Assembly (NCBI GenBank): GCA_002780715.1
Contig: PEUO01000208.1
Span: 1-50,446, forward strand
DNA from: Deltaproteobacteria bacterium CG03_land_8_20_14_0_80_45_14
GTDB lineage: Bacteria; Desulfobacterota; BSN033; UBA1163
Reading direction: 5' to 3'
DNA length: 50,446 bases
Shown here one piece after another: positions 27,031-48,893 of this stretch; the stretch's first letter is position 1, and the number at the start of each line of letters is the position of its first letter. A program made the translations under genes and the position numbers. The notes under the pieces were generated by a model. The model made no database searches. It was given only the letters and a program-made list of their open reading frames with translations, and was not told the DNA's origin.

Positions 27031-27927
27031 TTAGGCTTTTAATAGCCGTTTAATAGTTGGAGCGATTTCATCGGGCCGGTCCACTACATGAACTCCTGCT
27101 TCTTTAAGAGAAGCGATCTTACTCTTCGCTGATCCCTTCCCTCTTTCGATAATACTGCTCGCATGGGAAAACCGCATTCCTTCCGGAGCCCATGCCCCGG
27201 CCACATAAACAACAAGGGGTTTCGTAAATTTTTTTGTTCTCACTGCATCGGCTGCCTCTTCTTCATAAGGACCGCCAATTTCACCAAAGATCGCAACACC
27301 CTTTGTATCCTTATCCGCTTCGAAAAGAGGCAGGATGTCGCCGAAGGACTGACCCACAACCGGCTCTGTCCCGATATGCAAGACCGTGGTCACACCAAGG
27401 CCTGCCTGTTGAATAGCCCATGGCACCGTACCAGACTGCCCACCACTTCTTGAGATGACACCCACAGGCCCTGGCACAAAAACTCTTTTTGCAAACTCCG
27501 GAGTGCCTCCGAGCCAGCCCGCGGCCGCAATGCCAGGACTGATAATGCCAATTGATCCTGGGCCCAAAAGGCGGGCGCCTTTCTGTTTCCCATAAGCCAT
27601 CATTTCAAGGATGTCGTACAAAGGAACCCTCTCCACAGGCATGACGATGAATTTAATCCCAGCATCCAATGCCTCAAGCACCGCATCCTTCAGGCCTGGG
27701 CCGGGAACAAATGTCACGCTTGCATCAATGGGACCTTTCATCCTCACAGCCTCTTCGACGGTGTTAAAGACAGGAATTCCTGAGACTTCTTCTCCGCCCC
27801 TTCCAGGTGTTACCCCGGCCACTACCTTGGTGCCGTAACCTTTCATAAATGCGGCTCGAGCCGAACCTTCTCTTCCTGTAATTCCTTGGACTAAAATCGT
27901 TGTATTCTTTTCAAGTAGAATAGCCAT
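27031..27927 (-). CDS. succinyl-CoA synthetase alpha-like subunit, possibly malate-CoA ligase
   Basis: A SucD-type CoA-binding ligase subunit of 298 residues. The N-terminal TTILVQGITGREGS is the CoA-binding Rossmann start, GPVGVISRSGGQSG lies mid-protein, and the phospho-histidine is in MRFSHASSIIERGKGSA (SucD: MGHAGAIIxGGKGTA). GGAGG lies nine bases upstream of the ATG at 27927, preferred over 27990. With the SucC-like subunit and the CitE-like lyase it fits a malate thiokinase (MtkB), but succinate or other dicarboxylate use cannot be excluded. Confidence 0.78.
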   Translation of the reverse strand: MAILLEKNTTILVQGITGREGSARAAFMKGYGTKVVAGVTPGRGGEEVSGIPVFNTVEEAVRMKGPIDASVTFVPGPGLKDAVLEALDAGIKFIVMPVERVPLYDILEMMAYGKQKGARLLGPGSIGIISPGIAAAGWLGGTPEFAKRVFVPGPVGVISRSGGQSGTVPWAIQQAGLGVTTVLHIGTEPVVGQSFGDILPLFEADKDTKGVAIFGEIGGPYEEEAADAVRTKKFTKPLVVYVAGAWAPEGMRFSHASSIIERGKGSAKSKIASLKEAGVHVVDRPDEIAPTIKRLLKA

Positions 27928-27968
27928 CTCTCTCAGCCTCCGTCTGTCAAAGATTGCACAAAGTGTTA

Positions 27969-28125
27969 TGCTGAACTCTGAAAGTGTCATGCCGAACCAG
28001 GTCCTGAACTTGATTCAGGATCTAACGATTTCGGCATCTCTTCAGGGCAGGCTTGTTTCAGCATCTCATGAACCAGACCCTGAACCAACCCGTGAAACAA
28101 GTTCAGGGCATAGTTCAGGGTGACA
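27969..28125. repeat. GTCATGCTGAAC-family palindromes
   Basis: Several copies of TGCTGAAC/GTTCAG and CCTGAACTTGATTCAGGATC form overlapping hairpins in the spacer between the SucD-like gene and the small Cys-rich gene. Confidence 0.55.
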
Positions 28126-36444: not shown

Positions 36445-37512
36445 ATGTATCTATTCGATCTTGGGAAACTCCCTGGTCAGCAATCCATGCTCATCTTCCA
36501 TGCCCTTGCCCAATTGGGAATTGAGGCTCTTGTCATTGTCTCACCTAAAATTCCTCTTGTAAGCATTGGATATTTCCAGGACGCCGCAGAGGAAGTAGAT
36601 CTTCAATATTGCAGGGAATCCGGAATTCCTTTCATGAGACGAGAGGTGGGTGGAGGAGCTACTTATTTAGATGAGAATCAGATTTTCTATCAACTTATTT
36701 GGAAAAAATACAATCCAAAATTTCCCAAAGCGATTGATGAGATTTACCCGTGGTTCTCACAAGCGCCGGTGGACACTTACAGAACGTTCGGGATCGAGGC
36801 AGAATTTCGAACCGTGAATGACATTATCACAAGTACAGGAAGAAAGATTGCCGGGGAGGGTGGAGGAAACATCGGAGACTGTATGGTTTTCGTGGGCGGA
36901 ATCCTCCTCGATTTTGACTATCAAGCGATGAGTAGAATTCTGAAAGTGCCTGATGAGAAATTCAGGGATAAAGTTTATAAAACAATGGGAGAAAACCTGA
37001 CTACGATGAAGAGAGAATTAGGGATGATTCCATCGCGGGAAGAAGTCATCTCCGTTCTCAAAGAGAAATTTAAAAAAATAGTGGGGAAGTTGAAGCCAGC
37101 TTCATTGAACCCAGAAATTCTTGAGAACATGAGGCAAATAGAAGCTTGGATGACCTCAGAAGAATTTCTCTTAAAAAAGACTCCCAGAATTCCAGGAGGA
37201 GTTAAGATCAAGGAAGGCGTAGAGGTTCTCTATGGTCTCCATAAGGCCAGGGGAGGTCTGATTCGAACTACTGAGGAAATTTCAGAAGGAAAAATTGAAG
37301 GCATAAACATTTCTGGAGATTTTACATTTTATCCAAAAGAACGCCTCGATGGATTAGAGGGATCTTTAGAAAAGGTCTCTTTGAAAGAAGAGAAAATCAT
37401 CGAAAGGGTAGAAACTTACTATGAAAAAGAAGGGGTTGAATCACCCGGGGTGGAATCGAAAGACTTTGCAACGACGATTTTAAATCCTGTTAAGGATGCC
37501 GAAGTGGATTGA
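36445..37512 (+). CDS. lipoate-protein ligase A family protein
   Basis: A lipoyl/lipoate-protein ligase of about 355 residues. The N-terminal catalytic domain shows the RREVGGGATYLD motif (RRxSGGGxVxHD in LplA) and the active-site Lys region GRKIAGEGGGNIGD. The C-terminal part (KARGGLIRTTEEISEGKIEGI, GDFTFYP) is the accessory domain needed for lipoate activation, so a single polypeptide may carry both functions. AGGAAG lies six bases before the ATG at 36445. Its position after the lipoyl-carrier, CCG and cytochrome genes suggests it is dedicated to the GcvH-like protein of this cluster. Some LplA relatives are octanoyltransferases, so donor specificity is open. Confidence 0.82.
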   Translation: MYLFDLGKLPGQQSMLIFHALAQLGIEALVIVSPKIPLVSIGYFQDAAEEVDLQYCRESGIPFMRREVGGGATYLDENQIFYQLIWKKYNPKFPKAIDEIYPWFSQAPVDTYRTFGIEAEFRTVNDIITSTGRKIAGEGGGNIGDCMVFVGGILLDFDYQAMSRILKVPDEKFRDKVYKTMGENLTTMKRELGMIPSREEVISVLKEKFKKIVGKLKPASLNPEILENMRQIEAWMTSEEFLLKKTPRIPGGVKIKEGVEVLYGLHKARGGLIRTTEEISEGKIEGINISGDFTFYPKERLDGLEGSLEKVSLKEEKIIERVETYYEKEGVESPGVESKDFATTILNPVKDAEVD

Positions 37513-37761
37513 ATTAATAGTATTCTTATTAGACGTTAGAACCCGAATCTTTACCTCTTTGGTTTATCTCGTTTCTTTATTCTATTTTGTTTCTTTGGTT
37601 AACCAAACAAACCCGAGAAACGAAAATAACCAAATCAACCAGACTTCGCACTTCCAAAAATCCCCAAAAAGGTGTATATTCCAACCGTAAATTGACAATA
37701 GAGACATACTCCAAGCTCACCGGAGGGATGCCAATACGAACCGAAGGAATACGAATTCTGA
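37513..37761. other. 249-base boundary region left of the cassette array
   Basis: No gene is visible and no integrase remnant is recognisable. At 37561-37640 a large imperfect palindrome centred on TTTGGTTAACCAAA resembles the element at 15551-15630. A GTTAGAAC word at about 37534 could be a decayed recombination site, but this is weak. Confidence 0.5.
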
Positions 37762-37819
37762 TTCGAACAAGTCACTCCAGCGGATGGCTTAGAGCCACCG
37801 CTCAACTCCGCCGTTATGC
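37762..37819 (+). repeat. attC-like site 1
   Basis: R''-like TTCGAAC, arms AGCGGATGGCT and AGCCACCGCT pairing completely except for one unpaired A, and R' GTTATGC (37813-37819). This is the upstream boundary of the first cassette. Confidence 0.82.
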
Positions 37820-37879
37820 GGGATGAAATTGATTTTTCCTCGGTTTTTTGATATTCTTTCAAATATAGGAGGCGCTGCC

Positions 37880-38068
37880 ATGTCAAGTCTAATGGAGAAA
37901 GAACAAGCCCACAAACTGGTTGACCGGATGCCTGAAAACGCCACTTGGGATGACCTCATATATGAAATCTACGTGCGTGAAGTTATCGAACGGGGTTTAG
38001 CGGACAGCAGGGCCAACAGAACAAAAGACGTGAAAGAGGTTCGGGCGAAGTACGGCTTGCCGGAATGA
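37880..38068 (+). CDS. antitoxin of a ParE/RelE-type toxin-antitoxin pair
   Basis: A 62-residue acidic protein (MSSLMEKEQAHKLVDRMP...), with the WDDLIYEIYVREVIERGLADS segment typical of small antitoxins that precede RelE/ParE-type toxins. AGGAGG is placed seven bases before the ATG at 37880, and its stop overlaps the toxin's start (ATGA). It lies in cassette 1 between attC-like sites 1 and 2. No DNA-binding fold is obvious, though autoregulation would be expected. Confidence 0.75.
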   Translation: MSSLMEKEQAHKLVDRMPENATWDDLIYEIYVREVIERGLADSRANRTKDVKEVRAKYGLPE

Positions 38069-38364
38069 AAGTTTACTGGACAGATACAGCAGAGGGACAT
38101 CTTGACGCCATCTACGCTTACATTGCCCAAGACTCTCCCCAGTATGCCAAGCGAATGGTGGATCGGCTTACCCGGCGATCGCAGCAGATCGCTGATTTTC
38201 CTCTCTCCGGACGCAAAGTGCCGGAATACAAAATGGACCAGATTCGAGAGGTGATCGAGGGGCTATACCGGATCATCTATCACATCAAATCGGACCAAAT
38301 CGATGTTTTGGCCGTCATTCATGGCTCCCAGGATATTCTTCGCCAAGATAAAAAAGAAGACTGA
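38065..38364 (+). CDS. ParE/RelE superfamily toxin
   Basis: A 99-residue toxin of the RelE/ParE fold. Recognisable are the N-terminal VYWTDTAEGHLDAIYAYIA, the middle IADFPLSGRKVPE, and the C-terminal strand region YRIIYHIKSDQIDVLAVIHGSQD. The RxxxP-type end and lack of catalytic His/Arg/Lys set of RelE suggest a ParE-like gyrase toxin, but this cannot be decided by eye. It overlaps its antitoxin by four bases. Toxin-antitoxin modules are common in large cassette arrays, where they may stabilise the array. Confidence 0.88.
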   Translation: MKVYWTDTAEGHLDAIYAYIAQDSPQYAKRMVDRLTRRSQQIADFPLSGRKVPEYKMDQIREVIEGLYRIIYHIKSDQIDVLAVIHGSQDILRQDKKED

Positions 38365-38422
38365 CCTTGAGGACAATAGGACAGCCACCATTTAGTTTTT
38401 TTGAAAGTAAAATTAAAATAAA

Positions 38423-38480
38423 CCCTAACGAATCACTCCAGCGGATGGCTGATAGCCACCGCTGATTTTTATCGTATACC
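38423..38480 (+). repeat. attC-like site 2
   Basis: R'' CCCTAAC, arms AGCGGATGGCT and AGCCACCGCT with one unpaired A, R'-like GTATACC. The arms are the same as in site 1. Confidence 0.8.
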
Positions 38481-38622
38481 TCTTAAAATAGGGAACGGGA
38501 GGCTGTCCCTGGGCTATTTTGAAACACAAAAAGATTTTTTGAGACATGCATAGGCTTATTTTTTAGGAAACCATGGCAACAATATAGAAAAAAGTTTGGG
38601 AGTTCAAAGGAGAAGATTGGCA

Positions 38623-39567
38623 GTGGAAGGGAATGAAGCAACCCTCGACACCGTAAATGTCTATTTGAAGCAATTGCAAGAAACGGTAGAGCGCATTAGA
38701 GAACAGTTTTTGGAGCCAGTCCTGAGGCAACGAGAGGCATTTCAGCAATGGATGCAGCCAATAATCGAAGCTCAGAACGCATTACAAGAAACACTTGAAC
38801 CGATTTTGGCGGAGCAAAAACGGTGGAAGAACGTGGTTGAATCAATACAAATTTCAAAATATACACTCCCTGATATCTCTCAGATAGTGCAGCCTTCTTT
38901 AGAGTTTCAGAAATCTATTCAGGGTCTTATAACCCCAGCTTTCGAACAACTGCAAGAGAGCTTTCGGAGACTACCTCCTCGTACACAGGAAGCTGTTCTA
39001 TTACTTGGTGAGCACGGTTGGTACCTCGATCTAGAGATGCCAATCCCTGGTCTATGGGAGCTCAAAAAAGCTTTATCTGAAGGAAACGTAGAAGAAGCCG
39101 AGGAAGCACTAGCTGAATATTTCACTGGCAGATTAGACGAGATTGAAGCCTCGATCATTGAAAGATTTCCAAACAGACAAAAGATGATAAGAGCTGCGTT
39201 TAATGCACACCGGAGACAGGAGTATGAGCTTTCAATACCCGTTTTCCTGGCTCAAACGGACGGAATCTGTAAAGAAGTAATAAAGCAATACTTGTTCATT
39301 AAACAAAATAGAAAACCAAGAACTGCAATTTACGTAGAACAAATAGCATCGAACACCTTTAGGGCAGCACTATTGCAGCCGCTCGCTCACCCTCTTCCCA
39401 TCGCTGCTTCAGAGCGAGAGAGAGCAAAAGGCTTTAATGAATTAAATAGGCATATGGTGCTTCACGGTGAATCTTTGGATTATGGAACTCAGATAAATAG
39501 CTTAAAGGCGATATCGCTAATCAATTATGTGGCGCGTGTACTTACATTGGACGATAAGAATCCCTAA
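38623..39567 (+). CDS. HEPN-type (RX4H) cassette protein with coiled-coil N-terminus
   Basis: I infer a two-part protein. The first 130 residues are helical and rich in Gln and Glu, a likely coiled coil. The C-terminal half ends with FNELNRHMVLHGESLDYGTQ, where R-H-M-V-L-H matches the RX4H active-site motif of HEPN ribonucleases, a fold used by many toxins and abortive-infection effectors. Start choice is uncertain: GTG at 38623 (nine bases after AAAGGAG) is preferred over TTG codons at 38617 and 38596. The stop codon is part of the R'' box of the next attC-like site. No antitoxin partner is evident in the cassette. Confidence 0.6.
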   Translation: MEGNEATLDTVNVYLKQLQETVERIREQFLEPVLRQREAFQQWMQPIIEAQNALQETLEPILAEQKRWKNVVESIQISKYTLPDISQIVQPSLEFQKSIQGLITPAFEQLQESFRRLPPRTQEAVLLLGEHGWYLDLEMPIPGLWELKKALSEGNVEEAEEALAEYFTGRLDEIEASIIERFPNRQKMIRAAFNAHRRQEYELSIPVFLAQTDGICKEVIKQYLFIKQNRKPRTAIYVEQIASNTFRAALLQPLAHPLPIAASERERAKGFNELNRHMVLHGESLDYGTQINSLKAISLINYVARVLTLDDKNP

Positions 39568-39648
39568 CATGCCATGCAATTAACCACCTTTCCGCCGGTG
39601 CACTTCGCTACGCGGCTCCAAGGCGGCAATTGATAGCCAGGGTTATAT
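39562..39648 (+). repeat. attC-like site 3 (long form)
   Basis: R'' CCCTAAC overlaps the preceding stop codon; arms CCGCC/GGCGG and CAATT/AATTG; R'-like GTTATAT at 39642-39648. The loop is longer than in the other sites (87 bases overall), which is within the natural range of attC sites. Confidence 0.65.
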
Positions 39649-39694
39649 CCCAATGCATATTTCGATTGATTGTAGGCCGTTTATTGGATAGACA

Positions 39695-42600
39695 ATGATA
39701 GACACATATATCAAAAAGATCGCATCGATAACAAAGCGAGGAGATGCTCGTGAGGAATCCTACTATCCTGCCCTTGCGGCACTTCTCGAAGAGTTCTCCG
39801 AAACGGAGAGAAAAAAGAAGGCCCACGTCACCGTGCTGCCAAAGAAGACCGAAGCAGGCAATCCAGACTTTCGAGTCTGGGACGGCAAGCATTCTCAAGT
39901 CGGCTACGTTGAAGCGAAGCAGCCCAGAGCTAATCTCGATGAAATTGAGACTTCCGACCAATTGAAGCGTTACATTTCCACATTTCCTAATCTCATCCTG
40001 ACAAACTTCTATGAGTTCCGGCTCTACCGTAACGGCCAGCGTGTTGACAATGTCCTGCTTGCGCGCCCGTATATTCCGACAAAACTAAAAACCATTCCTC
40101 CTGCTGAGCATACCGTTGAGTTCCTGGCCTTACTGGAGAGGTTCTTTCAATTCTCCCTACCGACGAAGTTTACCGCTGAGAGTCTTGCAAAAGAACTCGC
40201 CACACGCACGCGCTTCCTCAGAGATCAAGTGATCAAAGAGGAACTCCGCGAGGCATCCGACGCAGGCGCGAAAAAGATTCTTGGATTCTATGAGGCGTTC
40301 CAGAAACATCTCATTTTCAACCTTAAGCCGGATGACTTTGCCGACCTGTATGCCCAAACCATAACCTATGGTCTCTTTGCCGCGAGAACCCGAGCCAATG
40401 GAGTATTCAATCGAATCCTGGCTTACGATCTGATTCCCAAGACTATCGGTATCTTGCGCGAAATCTTCCACTTCGTTTCATTCGACCCACCAGAGCAGCT
40501 CCAGGCGACCGTTGATGACATTGCGGAAGTCCTCGCCGTCGCGGATGTCAGGAACATTCTTCAGCAGTATTTCAAAGAGGGCAAAGGAAGCGATCCGATT
40601 TTTCATTTCTATGAGACCTTTCTTGCCGAGTACAACCCTCAAGAGCGTGAGCGACGAGGCGTTTATTATACGCCTGAACCCGTTGTCTCATACATTGTCC
40701 GTTCTCTTAACACCATCCTCAAGGAGAAATTCGCACGGCAGGACGGGTTTGCCACGCAATCCGTTACCGTACTCGATCCTGCTGGCGGAACGCTCACCTT
40801 CCTCGCCGAAGCGGCAAGGCTTGCCGTGAAGGAATTTGTCAGCAAGTACGGTGAAGGCTCAAAGGGAAAATTCATTGAGGATCACATTCTCAAGCACTTC
40901 TTCGCCTTCGAGTTGATGATGGCTCCATACGCAGCAGGCCACTTGAAGATGGGTTACCTCTTAGAAGAGTTGGGCCACAAGCTCTCAGGCGATGAACGGT
41001 TCCAGTTCTATCTGACGAATACGCTTGAAATGGAGGAGCTTGCCCAAACATCTCTTCCGGGAATGGCTTCCCTTTCGGAAGAATCCCACCTTGCCGGCAA
41101 AGTAAAGAGAGAGAGGCCCATTCTTGTTATTCTCGGCAATCCGCCGTACTCCGGACACTCAGCAAACAAAGGCGATTGGATTAGGGATCAAATCGAGACC
41201 TATAAGAGGATTGATGGGAAACCCCTTGGCGAGAAAAATCCCAAGTGGCTTCAGGATGACTACGTCAAGTTCATCCGATTCGCCCAGTGGAAGATTGACC
41301 AGATCGGCGAAGGTGTTCTCGGGTTTATCACGAATCACAGCTATCTCGATAACCCTACCTTCCGAGGGATGCGGCAATCGCTCATGAACTCATTTGACGA
41401 AATATACATCCTCGATCTTCACGGCAATTCACTCAAAAAAGAAAAAGCTCCTGATGGCTCTAAAGACGAAAACGTGTTTGACATACAGCAAGGCGTCGCT
41501 ATTGCCCTTTTTGTGAAAAAGAAGCAGAGTACCGCCCCCAAAATCTTGAAGCATAGTGAGATTTGGGGTGTGCGAGAACGTAAATACGAATGGCTGATAA
41601 AGCATGAGTTGAAAAAAACAGATTGGAGCGAGCTTAAACCCGTTTCACCCTTCTACCTGTTCGTTCCAAGAGATGAAAGATTGAACGTGCGGTTCCAATC
41701 GTATCCGAGCATTCCAGCGATTTTCCCTGTGAACAGCGTAGGAATTGTGACGGCCAGAGATCATTTTGTTATCGACTTTCAGAAAGCTCCGCTTCAACGT
41801 CGCATTGAGCAGTTTGCCAACTCTTCTTTTGACGATAGTTTCATCGCTCAAGCATTTAATCTGAAAGACTCTGGTGCCTGGGAGTTAAAGGCCGCACGAA
41901 AGAAGGTTATTGATGACAAAGAAAGAGGCAAACACTACACCCAAATTCTTTATCGTCCGTTTGATATCCGGCACTTGTTCTATCATGATGCTGTCATTGA
42001 ACGTGGACGTCGAGAAGTCATGCTGCATATGTTGCAACCTAATCTCGCCATTATCTCGCCTCGTCGCGTTGAAACCGCTATTCCCTGGTCACACGTTTTC
42101 TTGTCGAACCAACTGGTCGAGCACGTTGCTGTCTCTTTGAAAACGATTGACTACTGTTTTCCGCTGTATCTATATGTAGAATCTGGCTCGGGCGGTTCTG
42201 GTCGTGCGGGCCGATTCTCTCATTATCAAGCTGCGTTCATATTTGAACCGGCAGCAGCGTACTCGGTCCGCCGCCCAAACCTCAGTTCTAAGCTGCTAAT
42301 TTCGCTGGCGAATTCTTACAAACGACAACCAACGCCCGAAAAAATCTTCCATTACATCTATGGTCTTCTCTTTTCGAATGCTTACCGGAAAAAATATGCG
42401 GAGTTCTTGAAGACCGATTTTCCCCGCGTCCCCTTCACAAAAGATTACAAGCTTTTTAACAAACTTGCCGAAAAGGGCGAGGAGCTTGTTGATCTCCACC
42501 TGCTCAAATCCAAGAAGCTTTTCAAACCTATCGCAAAGTGTGAAGGCTCTGGCAACCTCCGTGTGGACAAAGTAAGTTACGATCAAAACAAGGCTCATGT

Positions 42601-42841
42601 TCACATTAACCCTGAGAAATGGTTTACCGATATTCCTCTTGAGGTCTGGGAATATCACACCGGCGGCTATCAGGTCTCGGAGAAATGGCTCAAGGACCGG
42701 AAGGGCAGGGAGCTTTCATCCGAAGAAGTAGCTCACTACACAAGGGTGGTAACAGCCATCGCAGAGACAATCAGAATACAAGAAAGTTTAGATGAATTGT
42801 TCAAAGAAGTCGAAACAAACCTGCTCGAAGTGAGGCTGTGA
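39695..42841 (+). CDS. fused nuclease-DNA methyltransferase (type ISP/IIG-like) restriction enzyme
   Basis: A 1048-residue restriction-modification protein. The N-terminal nuclease shows a PD-(D/E)XK-type set: GNPDFRVWDG (Asp58) and VGYVEAKQP (Glu73, Lys75). From about residue 355 the gamma-class N6-adenine methyltransferase begins, with motif I DPAGGTLTFLAEA and motif IV NPPYSGHS (about 482). The remainder would be target recognition. Type ISP enzymes carry a helicase between nuclease and methylase and are about 1,500-1,600 residues, but I see no helicase here, so a type IIG-like enzyme may fit better. It occupies one cassette of about 3.3 kb, very large for an integron cassette. Confidence 0.8.
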   Translation: MIDTYIKKIASITKRGDAREESYYPALAALLEEFSETERKKKAHVTVLPKKTEAGNPDFRVWDGKHSQVGYVEAKQPRANLDEIETSDQLKRYISTFPNLILTNFYEFRLYRNGQRVDNVLLARPYIPTKLKTIPPAEHTVEFLALLERFFQFSLPTKFTAESLAKELATRTRFLRDQVIKEELREASDAGAKKILGFYEAFQKHLIFNLKPDDFADLYAQTITYGLFAARTRANGVFNRILAYDLIPKTIGILREIFHFVSFDPPEQLQATVDDIAEVLAVADVRNILQQYFKEGKGSDPIFHFYETFLAEYNPQERERRGVYYTPEPVVSYIVRSLNTILKEKFARQDGFATQSVTVLDPAGGTLTFLAEAARLAVKEFVSKYGEGSKGKFIEDHILKHFFAFELMMAPYAAGHLKMGYLLEELGHKLSGDERFQFYLTNTLEMEELAQTSLPGMASLSEESHLAGKVKRERPILVILGNPPYSGHSANKGDWIRDQIETYKRIDGKPLGEKNPKWLQDDYVKFIRFAQWKIDQIGEGVLGFITNHSYLDNPTFRGMRQSLMNSFDEIYILDLHGNSLKKEKAPDGSKDENVFDIQQGVAIALFVKKKQSTAPKILKHSEIWGVRERKYEWLIKHELKKTDWSELKPVSPFYLFVPRDERLNVRFQSYPSIPAIFPVNSVGIVTARDHFVIDFQKAPLQRRIEQFANSSFDDSFIAQAFNLKDSGAWELKAARKKVIDDKERGKHYTQILYRPFDIRHLFYHDAVIERGRREVMLHMLQPNLAIISPRRVETAIPWSHVFLSNQLVEHVAVSLKTIDYCFPLYLYVESGSGGSGRAGRFSHYQAAFIFEPAAAYSVRRPNLSSKLLISLANSYKRQPTPEKIFHYIYGLLFSNAYRKKYAEFLKTDFPRVPFTKDYKLFNKLAEKGEELVDLHLLKSKKLFKPIAKCEGSGNLRVDKVSYDQNKAHVHINPEKWFTDIPLEVWEYHTGGYQVSEKWLKDRKGRELSSEEVAHYTRVVTAIAETIRIQESLDELFKEVETNLLEVRL

Positions 42842-42881
42842 GCAGAACCAAACAAGCAACAAAAATTGGCAATACCATGTA

Positions 42882-42931
42882 TCTTAATTCAGCGAACGGC
42901 TAAAAGCCTCCGCTGATTTCAGTCGTTGAGT
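42882..42931 (+). repeat. attC-like site 4
   Basis: Arms CAGCGAACGGCT and AGCCTCCGCTGA, R' GTTGAGT (a full match to GTTRRRY) at 42925-42931, degenerate R'' TCTTAAT. Confidence 0.75.
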
Positions 42932-42948
42932 CTATAGGAAAAGGCCAA

Positions 42949-43743
42949 ATGACTGATCAAAGTGGACATTGGAGATGGAATGTGAATCCCACATGGGAGC
43001 ATTTTTCATCTCTTTGCCAAGAGTCTAATGAGGCAATCTTAGCCCCAAATGATTTCTTCAAATATCATCATATCAAGGCGTGTTTATATTTCGGAATCGG
43101 GTCTATAGAATCCTTTCTCAACGAGTCAATGAGAAAAAAATTGCATTCGGAGGGCATTGAAGAAGAGAAAATTTATAAAAAACTTCGTTATGAAGGTTTT
43201 CGTGAAAAGGTAAAAAAATGGCCATCTGTGTTGGCCGAGCAAAGCATTAGCATTCCAGAAGAAGTGGTAGAATTAATTAACGATTATGGAGATCTTCGTG
43301 GTGAGGTTACCCATCCCAAAGCCAGAAATCATTCAATTTATAAGCTCCTCGACAATGTCCACGTCTCTAATATGCCCATTATTGTTGCGGAATTTATAGT
43401 TAGGGTATTGGAAGCATGTCGACAAACGTTCCCATATTGGTTACTCGGATGGAATTATATTGGAATGAATGGAGATGAGAATTGGCCGGCGCTTATCAAT
43501 AACCAACAATTTATGTTTTCTTTGTACTCATTCGGATTTAAAGTGCCGATACCATTGGCTGATGAAATGTCGAAGTGGGAAGCTCAACATATGTCAACCC
43601 TCCGCGGTTTCCAGTCTCTATCAGTCAACTTAGCCCAACTTAGTCGCTGCGAACTTAAGGATAAACGTTTTCCAAAGAAACCGCGCTTATGTAAGGAATG
43701 GTGGGATAAGGACCATAAAAAATCCTGTGGTGTAGTATTCTAA
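42949..43743 (+). CDS. HEPN-like cassette protein
   Basis: A 264-residue protein with the segment YGDLRGEVTHPKAR, in which Arg117 and His122 form an RX4H motif as in HEPN-fold proteins (the usual LRNxxxHP pattern). The preceding half is helical with an aromatic-rich N-terminus (HWRWNVNPTWEHF), and the C-terminus is basic with scattered Cys. It may be a toxin or a structural HEPN protein without catalysis. There is no recognisable antitoxin or nucleotidyltransferase next to it. Its stop codon lies inside the R'' box TTCTAAC of the next attC-like site, a hallmark of cassette genes. Confidence 0.6.
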   Translation: MTDQSGHWRWNVNPTWEHFSSLCQESNEAILAPNDFFKYHHIKACLYFGIGSIESFLNESMRKKLHSEGIEEEKIYKKLRYEGFREKVKKWPSVLAEQSISIPEEVVELINDYGDLRGEVTHPKARNHSIYKLLDNVHVSNMPIIVAEFIVRVLEACRQTFPYWLLGWNYIGMNGDENWPALINNQQFMFSLYSFGFKVPIPLADEMSKWEAQHMSTLRGFQSLSVNLAQLSRCELKDKRFPKKPRLCKEWWDKDHKKSCGVVF

Positions 43744-43810
43744 CTTCCGCCTGCAGCGGACGGCTACCTTGGCTCTCGCTAAGTCTCTGCGGCTGAACGA
43801 ACGGTTGGAA
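43738..43810 (+). repeat. attC-like site 5
   Basis: R'' TTCTAAC overlaps the stop of the upstream gene, CAGCGGACGGCT arm, and R'-like GTTGGAA at 43804-43810. Confidence 0.7.
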
Positions 43811-44121
43811 TGAACTAAACACTTAGAAACGGGGTCAAAGCTAAACTATACGTCTTAGAGAGTGGGGTCAACGACAGCTACCATTTAGCAGGTGAGACAA
43901 TGGAACTTCATAAGTTCCCCCAGCGGACTGTTGATAGCCGCTGCTCATTTTGGGCATTGGGCTGAGAGATCGATGGCCAGAATGCGGAAAACAATATCGG
44001 CGCTTAAACAAAAGCAGTTGCTTCAGGAAGAGCAGGAAATTTGAGGGTCAGACTTGAGTATTGAATTAATAAGAAGTATCACCTAACTGAGACGGCTGGT
44101 AGCTACCGTTGAGTTTTCGCG
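43811..44121 (+). other. two short cassettes without a convincing gene
   Basis: Between attC-like sites 5 and 7 the two intervals (about 150 and 165 bases, separated by site 6) have no open frame longer than 23 codons on the plus strand; the best is MARMRKTISALKQKQLLQEE at about 43973. They may be ORF-less cassettes, carry a small RNA, or be decayed. Confidence 0.5.
43908..43962 (+). repeat. attC-like site 6
   Basis: CCAGCGGACTGTTGATAGCCGCTG core with R'-like ATTGGGC (GTTGGGC with one change) at 43956-43962 and degenerate R'' TCATAAG. Confidence 0.6.
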
Positions 44122-44127
44122 TTGACT
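44081..44127 (+). repeat. attC-like site 7
   Basis: R'' ACCTAAC (full match to RYYYAAC), core GACGGCTGGTAGCTACCG, R'-like GTTGACT at 44121-44127. The shortest site, at 47 bases. Confidence 0.72.
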
Positions 44128-44168
44128 AGATGAAACGAAATTTATTTTGAAGTATAATGGGTGTAAAG

Positions 44169-44429
44169 ATGCCGGAGATATGTCGATTCTATGGTATAAT
44201 TATAGGGATGTTTTTTGATGATCATAACCCACCCCATTTTCATGCCCGGTATGGAAAGGAAAAGGTAGCAGTCGAGATAAACTCTCTGCGTGTATTGGAG
44301 GGGCGAATTCCTCCTCGAGCTTTAGGGCTTGTAATGGAATGGGCGTCTCAACACCAGAGCGAGTTGCTGCAAAATTGGGAGCTGGCGAAAAATAACCAAC
44401 CCCCAGAGAAAATTGCGTCTTTGGCGTAG
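44169..44429 (+). CDS. DUF4160 domain-containing protein
   Basis: An 86-residue protein of the DUF4160 type. The diagnostic core is YGIIIGMFFDDHNPPHFHARYG, with conserved His residues that suggest a small metal or nucleic-acid-binding site. The ATG at 44169 is preferred over 44157 because the family starts MPEI; a TATAAT lies just upstream. DUF4160 and DUF2442 genes are often adjacent and have been proposed to form toxin-antitoxin-like pairs. The downstream gene starts 14 bases after its stop, without an attC site between, so both share one cassette. Confidence 0.85.
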   Translation: MPEICRFYGIIIGMFFDDHNPPHFHARYGKEKVAVEINSLRVLEGRIPPRALGLVMEWASQHQSELLQNWELAKNNQPPEKIASLA

Positions 44430-44442
44430 ATGGAGGTCTATG

Positions 44443-44763
44443 ATGATCCACGATGTTGTTTCTGCATCTTATAAGGGTGAATACAAGATTGAAGTGACAT
44501 TCGATGATGGGAAGGAAGGGGTCGTAGATTTCTCAAAATATCTTGACAAAGGGGGCGTCTTTAGCCGTTTCAAGGATATTAATTTTTTCAGGAACTTTAA
44601 AATAAACCAAGAGCTCGGGGTTCTCACCTGGCAGGATGGGATAGACGTCGCGCCAGAGACACTTTATGCGGAAGCCACTGGGACATCGCTTCCGAATTGG
44701 ATGGAAAAGAAGCGAAAATCTTCAGCGAACAAGACACTACGGACGGCTAATAATCGCCGCTGA
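44443..44763 (+). CDS. DUF2442 domain-containing protein
   Basis: A 106-residue protein with the DUF2442 pattern: YKIEVTFDDGKEGVVDFSKYL, GVFSRFKDINFF, and GVLTWQDGIDVAPETLY. GGAGG lies six bases before the second of two ATGs (44440 and 44443). The last residues (LRTANNRR) are encoded by the downstream attC-like site, and the stop TGA lies within its L' arm, so the original C-terminus was probably altered when the cassette formed. It is the likely partner of the DUF4160 protein. Confidence 0.85.
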   Translation: MIHDVVSASYKGEYKIEVTFDDGKEGVVDFSKYLDKGGVFSRFKDINFFRNFKINQELGVLTWQDGIDVAPETLYAEATGTSLPNWMEKKRKSSANKTLRTANNRR

Positions 44764-44778
44764 TTTCAGTCGTTTGTA
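44724..44778 (+). repeat. attC-like site 8
   Basis: Arms GGACGGC and GCCGCTGA, R'-like GTTTGTA at 44772-44778; the reading frame of the DUF2442 gene ends inside it. Confidence 0.7.
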
Positions 44779-44786
44779 GTGAATAT

Positions 44787-45002
44787 ATGAATTTGAAGAA
44801 AGTCAATTCAAGCATGGTATATGCAATAGGGTACGACTCCAAGTCGAAAACCTTGGAAGTGGTTTTTAGGAGCGGAAAGGCATGGGGATACGAGGAGGTT
44901 CCGAAAAAGGTATACCAAGAATTATTAAAATCAGAATCGATTGGATCATACATGCGCGAGAATATCATCGATTGCTATCCATCCTATCCCATTAGACGAT
45001 AA
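44787..45002 (+). CDS. KTSC domain-containing protein
   Basis: A 71-residue protein that is essentially one KTSC domain (a small domain also found at the C-terminus of some lysyl-tRNA synthetases). The pattern VNSSMVYAIGYDSKSKTLEV, FRSGKAWGYEEVP and SIGSYMREN with the final Tyr-Pro is clear. The function is unknown. It shares a cassette with the next gene, since no attC-like site lies in the 13-base gap. Confidence 0.88.
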   Translation: MNLKKVNSSMVYAIGYDSKSKTLEVVFRSGKAWGYEEVPKKVYQELLKSESIGSYMRENIIDCYPSYPIRR

Positions 45003-45015
45003 GATTCCCAAAACA

Positions 45016-45384
45016 ATGACAAAGAAAAGAACAAGAATGAAAGACTACATTGGGACCTGGAGAATCACGGAAATGGATCAATGGGACATGGATTACATTG
45101 ACATGGAATCGCCCGGCCGCATTGTCATAGACAAGAATGGACAAGGCAAGATTCACTTTGGGGCTGTCGACGTTGAGATAGACTGCAGGTTAGAGTCACA
45201 TGGAGGGGGTGCTCGCCTTGGATTCTCATTTGAAGGAAATGACGAATGTGATCCTGTGAGTGGGCGAGGATGGGCCTTGATAGATGGAGAAGAAATGGCA
45301 GGACATATCTTCTTTCATTTGGGTGACGACTCAGAATTCAAGGCGAAGAGGCAGAATAAAAAGCCACTAAGAAGCGCTGAATGA
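45016..45384 (+). CDS. uncharacterised cassette protein (MKDYIGTWRI family)
   Basis: A 122-residue protein with no assigned function. It contains the segment MKDYIGTWRITEMDQWDMDYI followed by a beta-rich middle (KIHFGAVDVEIDCRLE, LGFSFEGNDECDPVSGRGWALI) and a closing HIFFHLGDDSEFKAKR. The pattern suggests a small lipocalin-like or jelly-roll beta barrel. ATG at 45016 is used; the conserved part begins at the ATG at 45037, and neither has a ribosome site. The protein is acidic and soluble. Confidence 0.65.
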   Translation: MTKKRTRMKDYIGTWRITEMDQWDMDYIDMESPGRIVIDKNGQGKIHFGAVDVEIDCRLESHGGGARLGFSFEGNDECDPVSGRGWALIDGEEMAGHIFFHLGDDSEFKAKRQNKKPLRSAE

Positions 45385-45437
45385 ATCACTGTAGAAGGGG
45401 CCATCTGCTACCATAAAGCCCCTTACAAAAGATTACT
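45385..45437 (+). repeat. possible degenerate attC-like site 9
   Basis: Arms GTAGAAGGGGC (45391-45401) and GCCCCTTAC (45418-45426) pair except for two unpaired bases, and GATTACTC could be a decayed R' box. Boundary boxes are poor. Confidence 0.35.
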
Positions 45438-45465
45438 CACCACCTTAAGCCTTTGTGATGATAAT

Positions 45466-46050
45466 ATGTCTCTTAGACCGATAACATATAAAAACAGAAG
45501 ATCTCAAACCTTTTATCTCCATCAAGGCAAAACAAAAATAGGTCGTCCAAACTATTTCTTTTCGTTAAAGAGCTCTGGCCCTTTGGCTGATACTATGCCT
45601 GAAGGGTATGAAATGTATGAAAATCCAAGAGGCCAAGTCTTCCTATGTAAAAAGCAACCTAAATTGATTAGTGACTCTGAAATCAGAGTTGTGGATGAAG
45701 GCATGAGGAAATATTCCGGCATAGAGTATTACAGGCTCGATATCAAGAAGAATACCATCATCGTTTATTTGGTAGATCAGGATATGGAAACGATAGGAGA
45801 GCTACTTCCTGAAAGGTATATTCTCAAGTACGGCGGTACGGAGAAGGCCCTGGATTCCATATTGGAATATTCACCCATGATGAGGTTTGTTCTGACGGAT
45901 GATGAGAAAAGGAGGTTTGTAGTGGAAAGATATTGTTTTCTTGGGTCAATAGACGATTGGATAAACATAGGTGGACCTGATAAGTTGGAGAATCTGACAA
46001 AAAGGTATTTAAAGCATTTAGGGAAAGAGTCATTCTTCGAGCTATTCTAA
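45466..46050 (+). CDS. uncharacterised cassette protein
   Basis: A 194-residue soluble protein that I cannot place. It has the features FYLHQGKTKIGRPNYFFSL, MPEGYEMYENPRGQVFLCKK, and a C-terminal half with alternating strands and helices (EYSPMMRFVLTDDEKRRFVV, GSIDDWINIGGPDKLENLTK). Proteins with the HQGKTKxGxPxYFFS segment occur in many bacteria as hypothetical genes. It lies between attC-like sites 9 and 10. Confidence 0.6.
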   Translation: MSLRPITYKNRRSQTFYLHQGKTKIGRPNYFFSLKSSGPLADTMPEGYEMYENPRGQVFLCKKQPKLISDSEIRVVDEGMRKYSGIEYYRLDIKKNTIIVYLVDQDMETIGELLPERYILKYGGTEKALDSILEYSPMMRFVLTDDEKRRFVVERYCFLGSIDDWINIGGPDKLENLTKRYLKHLGKESFFELF

Positions 46051-46054
46051 TCTA

Positions 46055-46111
46055 TCCTAACAAACTGTGGGGCATGCGGATAACCCGTGCCACTTGGTCA
46101 GAATGTTGGGA
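46055..46111 (+). repeat. attC-like site 10
   Basis: R'' TCCTAAC at 46055-46061, arms GTGGGGCA and TGCCAC, R'-like GTTGGGA at 46105-46111. The last recognisable site of the array. Confidence 0.7.
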
Positions 46112-46132
46112 TGAAATAAAGGGAAAAGCGAC

Positions 46133-46930
46133 ATGAAAGACCCAGTACAACCACTGGCAGAAGTTTTTGGGCATTTGATAACAGATCACTCCGAAAAGGC
46201 CTATCGATACCGGTCTCGTCGTCTTTGTCCATTTAACAACAAGGTACCGAATTGCACAAAAGACAAAGCGAAAGACCCACTTGGAGTTTGTAGCATTTAT
46301 CACGAAAATCAACCTGTGATCACCTGCCCCATTCGCTTTCGTGAGGACTGGATAATTACAGACGATGCTGCATCTTTTTTCTTTCGCGAAGGAACGAATT
46401 GGAGCTCTCTCACAGAAGTCCGATTGAATGACTCAAAGGGTAAATCCGCTGGAAACATTGATGTTGTGCTCGTTGCTTACGATGCCAAAAGTAAGGTATA
46501 TGATTTTGGAGCACTGGAAATCCAGGCAGTTTACATTTCCGGAAACGTGCGTGATCCTTTTGAGTACTTCATGAAATATCCGAAAGCACGAGCATCAATG
46601 GATTGGGCAAAGGAGCCGAATTATCCAAGACCTGATTATCTTTCATCTTCCCGGAAAAGACTTGCTCCCCAACTTCTCTTCAAAGGCGGCATCCTTCACG
46701 GTTGGAGAAAGAAGATCGCCGTGGCTCTAAATAAAACTTTCTTTGATACGCTACCGAAATTGAAGCATGTTTCAAGGTCCAAAGCAGATATAGCATGGTT
46801 CATCTACGATTTAGAACTGATTGAAGATAGAAAACATGGGCCAGGAAGATACACTCTGAAGAAGGTTGACGAAGTATTCACAGAGTTCCAATCTTTCACT
46901 CAGAACTCTATGGTCTTCGATCTTCATTAA
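46133..46930 (+). CDS. NotI-family restriction endonuclease
   Basis: A 265-residue type II restriction endonuclease of the NotI family. The iron-binding Cys set is in LCPFNNKVPNCTKDKA and PLGVCSI followed by ITCPIRF; the catalytic PD-(D/E)XK variant is GNIDVVLVAYD with FGALEIQAVY (Asp, Glu-x-Gln), as in NotI. Length is shorter than NotI itself, but the catalytic and iron-binding parts are complete. AAAGGG precedes the ATG. There is no cognate cytosine methyltransferase in the window. It occupies the last cassette; an attC site after the gene is not visible. Confidence 0.9.
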   Translation: MKDPVQPLAEVFGHLITDHSEKAYRYRSRRLCPFNNKVPNCTKDKAKDPLGVCSIYHENQPVITCPIRFREDWIITDDAASFFFREGTNWSSLTEVRLNDSKGKSAGNIDVVLVAYDAKSKVYDFGALEIQAVYISGNVRDPFEYFMKYPKARASMDWAKEPNYPRPDYLSSSRKRLAPQLLFKGGILHGWRKKIAVALNKTFFDTLPKLKHVSRSKADIAWFIYDLELIEDRKHGPGRYTLKKVDEVFTEFQSFTQNSMVFDLH

Positions 46931-46998
46931 TGGCCAGACTTTATGAAGTCGCCCCCGCCCAACAATTTGCAATTTGCAATCTACAATTTGAAATCTTT
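46931..46998. other. spacer marking the right end of the array
   Basis: After the NotI-like gene, GCCCAAC (a perfect R''-type heptamer) occurs at about 46958, but no matching L or R' boxes follow; instead CAATTTGCAATTTGCAATC repeats begin. The terminal attC site may have been truncated by this repeat. Confidence 0.35.
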
Positions 46999-48123
46999 TT
47001 ACGATAGGATTTCCTTCAATGCTCCCGTCAGACAATGGATATATCGGAGCTTGCAGGTCTCTCCCATGAGGCCGACTCTCCATATTTTTCCCTTCAGTCG
47101 GCCTAAACCTCCTCCTACTTCGATGTTATACTCGTTCAGAAGCCTCGACCGTATCTTGGCATCGTCGGCCCAATCAGGGATAGTCACAGAGGTCAACATA
47201 GGCAAACGATACCCATCTTGCGCGAAAGGTTTGAACCCAAACCCTTCCAGTTCCATCTTTAAACGGTCGCCCAAAACCTCATGGCGCCGAAATCTTGCCC
47301 CGAGTCCTTCTTCAAAGACAATCCTCAGCCCTTCCCTTAATGCATAAAACATCGATACAGGAGCGGTGTGATGATAAACCCTTTCTTCTCCCCAATATTT
47401 TTCAAGCAATAATAAATCAAGATAAAAACTCTGAACCTTTGTCTTGCGGGACCTGAGGACATCCATCGCTTTGGGGCTCACGGTGATTGGAGAAAGCCCT
47501 GGTGGAACGCTAAGACACTTTTGGGAACTACCGTAGCAGACGTCAACTCCCCATTCGTCAACCTTCACATCATATCCTCCCAAAGTGGTCACAGCATCCA
47601 CCACCAGAAGGGTGCTCCCTTTTTTGCAGTTAGCCCCAATCTCTTCAAGCGGCTGCCTCACTCCGGTGGAAGTCTCCCCATGAACGACGCCACAGATCTT
47701 GGCCTCGGGATGTTCCTTTAAGGCCTTGACCATTTTTTCCGGCTCAATCATCTTTCCCCAATCCTGATCGACCCGAATGACCTGAGCGCCACAGCGGGAA
47801 GCCACCTGAGTCATCCTTTCTGCAAAGAAGCCGTTTACTCCAATGACAACAACATCTCCAGGCTCAACGAAATTGACAAACGAAGCCTCCATCCCTGAAC
47901 TCCCGGTAGCAGAGATAGCCAGAGTGACCTGGTTTTTTGTCTGGAAAATGCCTCTTAACATCTCACTGATCTCGTCCATACAGGCCAGAATTTGGGGATC
48001 AAGATAACCGATGACCGGGTTAGACATGGCTTGATAAACCCGGTAATGGACATTGCTCGGCCCGGGGCCCATAAGAATCCGATAGCTCGGATGCATATCT
48101 CCTCCCATCCATTTTTCCATCAT
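46999..48123 (-). CDS. class V aminotransferase: alanine/serine-glyoxylate aminotransferase-like
   Basis: A PLP-dependent fold type I aminotransferase of about 374 residues, in the alanine-glyoxylate / serine-glyoxylate transaminase group. Key segments are RILMGPGPSNVHYRVYQAM, the glycine-rich SATGSSGMEASF, VVDAVTTLGGYDVKVDEWG (PLP Asp region) and the PLP lysine in YGSSQKCLSVPPGLSP. The start ATG at 48123 overlaps the preceding stop (TGATG); an in-frame ATG at 48096 also has GGGAGG before it. With the glycolate oxidase and malyl-CoA lyase-like genes, it would remove glyoxylate to glycine. Confidence 0.85.
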   Translation of the reverse strand: MMEKWMGGDMHPSYRILMGPGPSNVHYRVYQAMSNPVIGYLDPQILACMDEISEMLRGIFQTKNQVTLAISATGSSGMEASFVNFVEPGDVVVIGVNGFFAERMTQVASRCGAQVIRVDQDWGKMIEPEKMVKALKEHPEAKICGVVHGETSTGVRQPLEEIGANCKKGSTLLVVDAVTTLGGYDVKVDEWGVDVCYGSSQKCLSVPPGLSPITVSPKAMDVLRSRKTKVQSFYLDLLLLEKYWGEERVYHHTAPVSMFYALREGLRIVFEEGLGARFRRHEVLGDRLKMELEGFGFKPFAQDGYRLPMLTSVTIPDWADDAKIRSRLLNEYNIEVGGGLGRLKGKIWRVGLMGETCKLRYIHCLTGALKEILS

Positions 48124-48893
48124 CAAACCTCCTCTAAATCAATTTTCATTCCATCGCTGGCAGCAATTACTTTCAATCCCAATTCTTTCTCTAATTCAGC
48201 AGCCACGACCCAGGGTTTAGCTTTGATCATCGTCATCCCAAAATGGGTCAGGATGGTCAATCTCGGCTTTGCTTTCTTGAGAATACTTTTCACATCTTCG
48301 ATCGAGAGGTGATCGATTGGATCATCCCCAATCGGTTTAAGCCGAACGACATGAATGACCAGGATCTCTCCTCGATAAAGGTTCAGGAGCTCCGGAAAAA
48401 ATTTTGTATCAGTGATAAACGAAATTGTACGGGGCGATATTTTAAAATTGAGCCCATAGGTCTCTACTCGGTGTTGATGCCTTTGGGCAGTCGAGAACCG
48501 GATGTCCCCGATCAGATATTCCGAATCCTCCTTCAACACCTCCACTTTTTTAACATAACCCATCGCATATTTTAAAACAACTGGATCTTCCTCCAGAGCA
48601 TCCCTGGGCGCAAACAGAACCCCCTTTTTTTTGAATCCTCCATCTGTCATGGCCTCAATCATAATGTTGACATCACCGGAATGGTCTAAGTGTTTATGGG
48701 TGAGGAGAATACCGTCCAATGTGGATGGTTCTAATCTGGGTTTGCTGCTGAGACACCGAACCAGAGCGCCAGGTCCCGGATCGATATAGAGATTCGTTTT
48801 CCCCACTGAGAGCCAGACGCCACCCGAGGCTCGGAGTTGTTTCATCACCACAAATCGGGCGCCTGCCGTGCCTAAAAATTTGATGAAAGACAT
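48123..48893 (-). CDS. MBL-fold metallohydrolase
   Basis: A metallo-beta-lactamase-fold hydrolase of 256 residues. The zinc-binding motif is THKHLDHSGD, with the later His in LTHFGM and the preceding IDPGPGALV strand typical of the fold. It resembles the tRNase Z/ribonuclease BN or phosphodiesterase side of the superfamily more than glyoxalase II, but the substrate cannot be read. Its stop codon overlaps the start of the aminotransferase gene, so the two are co-translated. No signal peptide. Confidence 0.85.
   Translation of the reverse strand: MSFIKFLGTAGARFVVMKQLRASGGVWLSVGKTNLYIDPGPGALVRCLSSKPRLEPSTLDGILLTHKHLDHSGDVNIMIEAMTDGGFKKKGVLFAPRDALEEDPVVLKYAMGYVKKVEVLKEDSEYLIGDIRFSTAQRHQHRVETYGLNFKISPRTISFITDTKFFPELLNLYRGEILVIHVVRLKPIGDDPIDHLSIEDVKSILKKAKPRLTILTHFGMTMIKAKPWVVAAELEKELGLKVIAASDGMKIDLEEV

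Follow-up and report, generated by a model that had tools for sequence, protein, structure and literature searches.

A 3'-truncated NotI-family endonuclease gene at the end of an integron-like array is very probably the remnant of a restriction-modification cassette

We analysed a 50,446-nt stretch of DNA (the window) from Deltaproteobacteria bacterium CG03_land_8_20_14_0_80_45_14 and focused on the ORF at 46133-46930 on the forward strand. The results showed that this ORF is a 265-aa endonuclease gene of the Pfam NotI family (PF12183; E 2.7e-64, 217 bits against a curated cut-off of 22), in agreement with the first-pass annotation, which had recognised a NotI-type cysteine set and a catalytic Asp/Glu-x-Gln. 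The putative metal-binding residues Cys32, Cys41, Cys53 and Cys65 and the predicted catalytic residues D110 and E129-I-Q131 (PD-(D/E)xQ) were all present, and their columns were conserved over 35 aligned homologues. The PF12183 match and the alignment to relatives assigned residues 1-252 (46133-46888, +) to the retained endonuclease. Within these 252 residues, the protein deviated at none of the columns conserved at 96% or more, and private or non-synonymous changes were not in excess. Since the retained part lacks signs of decay, the break looks young relative to the divergence of the family.

Homology to the relatives ended at residue 252, and the final 13 residues were unrelated to them (QSFTQNSMVFDLH, with the stop codon at 46889-46930, +). 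The relatives extend about 42 residues beyond this point in a conserved pattern, including a Gln (position 275 of the full-length relative L005) that is invariant in the other aligned sequences and absent from the window copy. DNA coding for this C-terminus was detectable in all compared loci except the window and L058. The fold was judged on a model of L005 (mean pLDDT 77), standing in for the window protein, and this model matched the NotI structures 3C25 and 3BVQ in Foldseek (E 7e-10 and 2e-9, respectively). Its helices 252-260 and 267-281 lie in the part missing from the window copy, so the window protein comprises the front five-sixths of a NotI-like enzyme without the C-terminal helices of the complete protein. 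The truncated copy in L075 was considered as proof that the C-terminus is dispensable, and was dropped because the DNA that encodes its C-terminus persists in a different frame.

The broken gene is the last unit of an insertion at about 37.5-47.0 kb, between an lplA-like gene and the host aminotransferase gene (46999-48126, -) that bounds the array. Congener comparison showed that in G014 the site is empty, with the lplA-like and aminotransferase genes adjoining 58 bp apart. Congener G015 carries 4.5 kb at the same site, with some of the window's units reordered: the type IIG gene, the unit at window 37861-38342 and the KTSC unit are common to both. The last unit of the G015 array also stops mid-gene near the same boundary. 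The endonuclease itself was found in none of the four congeners of the window organism. Profile matches identified a type IIG restriction enzyme-methyltransferase of the m6A type (Type_ISP_C; 39695-42841, +), a separate restriction-modification (R-M) system 3.3 kb upstream of the endonuclease, together with a DhiT/DhiA-like gene pair (DUF4160/DUF2442; 44157-44763, +) and the KTSC-domain gene (44787-45002, +). The ORFs at 45466-46050 (194 aa) and 42949-43743 (264 aa) matched no Pfam family, and the interval 37500-47000, a hot spot between the lplA-like and aminotransferase genes, also holds unknown ORFs. No relatives of the other array genes were found in the fetched loci.

Several attC-like hairpins lie between the units. 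The one immediately before the endonuclease (46050-46114, +), detected by its fold and upstream motif, has a 9-bp outer stem (ATCCTAACA/TGTTGGGAT) and a terminal GTTGGGAT placed 28 nt before the start codon. Repeat and fold evidence located further copies at 37778-37804, 38439-38465 and 42890-42916 (all +), and the repeat search added weaker ones at 43921-43947 (+, 3 mismatches) and 44740-44774 (+). The repeat pattern, which was drawn from these very copies, gave 4 matches against 0 in shuffles. The hairpins have the shape of attC with degenerate R' boxes, and a strict attC pattern returned no site in the array, whereas the relaxed repeat, fold and upstream-motif tests did find candidate sites. 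Of 73 endonuclease genes (a set that includes the window and a duplicate record, L007/L082), 13 had the motif GTTRGGAY within the 60 nt before the start, compared with a background of 0.4%. An intact integron integrase adjoins the pair described below in Ca. Roseilinea (L018; 475.7 bits against a cut-off of 265), and a decayed one lies beside the pair in L007. No integron integrase was seen in the window, and all matches to TIGR02249 in the genome fell below the cut-off and on other contigs; an Rfam scan of the array gave no match. With no integrase near the array and no match to a strict attC pattern, the array can be called integron-like and no more, and with this proviso the earlier description of the gene as part of a cassette was appropriate.

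To place the gene in its family, we scanned public genomes and kept 80 loci with 63-85% identity. These span Nitrospirota, several deltaproteobacterial lineages, Planctomycetota, Chlorobiota, Chloroflexota, Thermus, Acidobacteriota and others, as well as Methanothrix archaea. In 69 of the 80 loci, the endonuclease gene is followed on its own strand by a gene for a D12-class adenine-N6 methyltransferase. The two genes mostly overlap or abut, and in a few of these loci (e.g. L009, L029 and L058) the methyltransferase gene is split or partial. The assignment to the D12 m6A family was accompanied by a match to the PDB adenine methylase 7m6b. Of the 11 loci without a methyltransferase, L032 and L056 reach the contig edge immediately behind the endonuclease, and the other nine form one Chlorobiaceae group. 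Thus, outside the Chlorobiaceae clade and wherever the contig continues, the methyltransferase is directly 3' of the endonuclease in 69/69 loci. A search of 17 genomes of the window's own taxonomic family revealed three other genomes with the endonuclease, and the D12 methylase adjoins it in all three.

The window departs from this arrangement. No homologue of the relatives' methyltransferase, the cognate partner in a type II R-M system, was found in the window or elsewhere in the 86.6%-complete assembly. This assembly is a fragmented draft with 253 contigs, and the methylase could sit in a missing part. The junction between the broken gene and the aminotransferase gene (46931-46998) contains no methylase or C-terminus remnant, and a search of the window in all frames gave no significant match to either. 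A search for the source of the approximately 50 bp that separate the break from the host flank also found none. The first-pass annotation had stated that no cytosine methyltransferase lies near the enzyme, and none does; the companion of this lineage is an adenine methyltransferase, so the wrong kind had been sought.

The survey also yielded observations on the family itself. The predicted cognate methylase of L005 (L005:5613-6608) gave a better match to PADLOC PD-Lambda-5_B (E 6.5e-40) than to the models of ordinary type II methylases, which suggests that it and its homologues are akin to the methylase of the PD-Lambda-5 defence system. The Methanothrix pairs (L019, L041, L043, L045 and L048) formed one clade with support of 100/95 among bacterial copies, pointing to transfer between bacteria and archaea. 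In L011, L012, L034, L064 and L075, the endonuclease frame is split or frameshifted and the downstream methylase is intact, which is the opposite of the window case and the expected direction of decay.

The methylase-less Chlorobiaceae loci (L065-L067, L069-L071, L073, L078 and L081) usually carry two convergent NotI-family genes, as in L066 (7479-8816, + and 9454-10536, -), at a largely conserved chromosomal place. The proteins have N-terminal extensions, some with a weak DUF2383 match; 14 of the 15 copies have His in place of the catalytic Gln, and changes also affect basic residues that hardly vary elsewhere (R97, R166 and R176). These copies cluster in a single clade (100/100), nested in a Chlorobiaceae group in which intact R-M copies occur as well. 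They look like a domesticated nuclease pair.

We then considered the NotI site. The octamer GCGGCCGC lies at 27521-27528, inside the SucD-like ORF 27031-27990 (-), as the first-pass annotation had reported, and it is the only copy in the window. Shuffled versions of the window contained 0.17 sites on average and at least one site in 17 of 100 cases, so that a single site is unremarkable. The whole assembly has 16 sites, compared with 23 for a reversed-pattern control; the octamer is neither surprising nor strongly avoided there. GCGGCCGC contains no adenine. Since the cognate methylase of this lineage is of the m6A type, the target should contain an A, and the cognate enzyme could not protect GCGGCCGC. 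From the chemistry of the methylase family, it is therefore very unlikely that the lineage shares NotI's target, and the ancestral target would be an adenine-containing sequence different from GCGGCCGC. The octamer in the window is thus probably irrelevant to this lineage. A search of the genome for cytosine methylases gave one match, an open frame of 146 aa, which would be irrelevant if the target contains an A. Our literature search found no paper on the chemistry of M.NotI.

Taken with the break, these results make it very probable that a recent truncation left the window gene as an inactive remnant of a two-gene type II R-M cassette of a NotI-fold lineage. The intact form would consist of a gene for an endonuclease of about 294 aa of the Fe-Cys4-type PD-(D/E)xQ kind, followed by an overlapping or abutting D12 adenine-N6 methyltransferase gene, and the pair would travel as a gene cassette, inside integrons in some hosts, across bacterial phyla and archaea. 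Such a cassette would have landed at the right end of the integron-like array, between the lplA-like and aminotransferase genes, where one deletion would have taken the last ~42 codons of the endonuclease gene and the whole methyltransferase gene together. Loss of the methylase alone would have exposed the chromosome to cutting, and the simultaneous loss of the C-terminus plausibly made the deletion survivable. The missing conserved C-terminal helices would be expected to abolish or cripple activity, and with a crippled enzyme the cell could survive without the methylase. Against this stands the full conservation of the retained 252 residues at nearly invariant positions: as these positions are kept and non-synonymous changes are not in excess, the shortened protein may still be able to fold and the cell may tolerate the truncation.

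That conservation also bears on whether the shortened protein could still be a working solitary endonuclease, with the chromosome protected by an unlinked methylase such as the type IIG m6A enzyme 3.3 kb upstream or another methylase in the genome. We consider this improbable. The catalytic and Cys residues are intact, other methylases exist in the genome, and separated R-M systems are known (PMC3488263), but the conserved C-terminus with its invariant Gln has been lost and the assembly holds no relative of the cognate methylase. In addition, type IIG enzymes modify their own target, so that a matching specificity would be a coincidence. It is a shade less likely again that the truncated enzyme stayed active and was tolerated without a methylase of its own, which would make it a solitary NotI-type nuclease of reduced length whose target contains adenine.

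As improbable as a working solitary enzyme protected by an unlinked methylase is an assembly artefact, in which the organism has an intact pair and a misjoin at about 46890 created the break; the draft state of the genome and the undecayed coding part would allow this. However, the sequence on the right belongs to the true host locus, as in the congeners, and the break is not repeated in the genome, where the only other match is short and lies downstream of the break (query 84-121). The mid-gene truncation near the same boundary in G015 is of the same kind and also speaks against a misjoin. Finally, domestication of the gene for another role without its methylase is scarcely plausible: although a methylase-less clade of single origin does exist in Chlorobiaceae, that clade retains a C-terminus, if a shorter one, has additional N-terminal sequence, differs at catalytic and basic residues and sits in conserved synteny. 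The window copy shows none of these traits and is absent from its four congeners.

The remnant reading removes the apparent paradox of a NotI-like enzyme beside a NotI site. Both facts behind that paradox hold; the contradiction falls away, with the gene truncated and its target probably not GCGGCCGC. Among the explanations offered in the first-pass annotation, a specificity different from NotI gains indirect support, as the 69/69 informative relatives pair with a predicted m6A D12 methylase. Protection by a methylase elsewhere gains no support: relatives of the cognate methylase are missing from the 86.6%-complete assembly, and the relevant site is probably one other than GCGGCCGC. A silent gene came near the best answer, without the reason now proposed, namely 3' truncation with co-deletion of the partner; the truncation, the adenine-type companion and the nearby type IIG gene had all been missed. 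The locus is a documented solitary endonuclease gene for which in situ deletion is the simplest explanation, and it can be compared with intact relatives, with a reordered array and with an empty site. The Pfam label "NotI" here covers a widely transferred cassette of an endonuclease and an adenine methylase, for which NotI specificity is very unlikely. The remnant is ordinary decay of a known kind; more interesting than the gene are the survey of its family and the methylase-less clade in Chlorobiaceae.

Compared with known systems, the lineage resembles NotI (PDB 3C25 and 3BVQ; PF12183) in fold, as judged on the L005 model, in family model, in the Cys4 set and in the D...ExQ active site; NotI itself has an Fe Cys4 motif and a Gln in place of Lys (PMC4081073). 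It differs in having only ~15% identity over the fold alignment and an adenine methylase as partner, and the window copy lacks the C-terminus. When the PDB was searched with the endonuclease by phmmer and by profile, no NotI chain was returned, and the fold comparison alone matched NotI. Closer parallels are plasmid pairs annotated as "NotI family restriction endonuclease" and "DNA adenine methylase" on Thermus brockianus pTbrSNM4-1c, Aeromonas veronii unnamed3 and Achromobacter pEST4011, which share the endonuclease family and the adenine methylase directly downstream and, unlike the window, are intact two-gene systems. The Thermus endonuclease is 69% identical to L005, whereas those of Aeromonas and Achromobacter reach only ~30% identity. 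On a Sedimenticola plasmid, the partner of a NotI-family gene (about 32% identical) is a cytosine methylase; because both kinds of partner occur in the family, modification type and specificity vary within it. R-M genes in integrons are known (PMC4176335, PMC3874152), and the window array resembles such cassettes in its single-orientation units with attC-like hairpins between them, but has no nearby integrase and only degenerate attC-like sites. A pan-genome survey suggests that recent degradation rarely explains solitary R-M genes (PMC4176335). Truncated solitary endonucleases are nevertheless a known class, with 16 type II cases that are probably truncated (Ershova et al. 2012, PMC3488263), and the window gene is like them in having no methylase and in being shorter than its homologues. 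Its loss of ~14% (10% when the unrelated tail is counted) is below the 20% cut-off used in that study, but it is documented against intact relatives.
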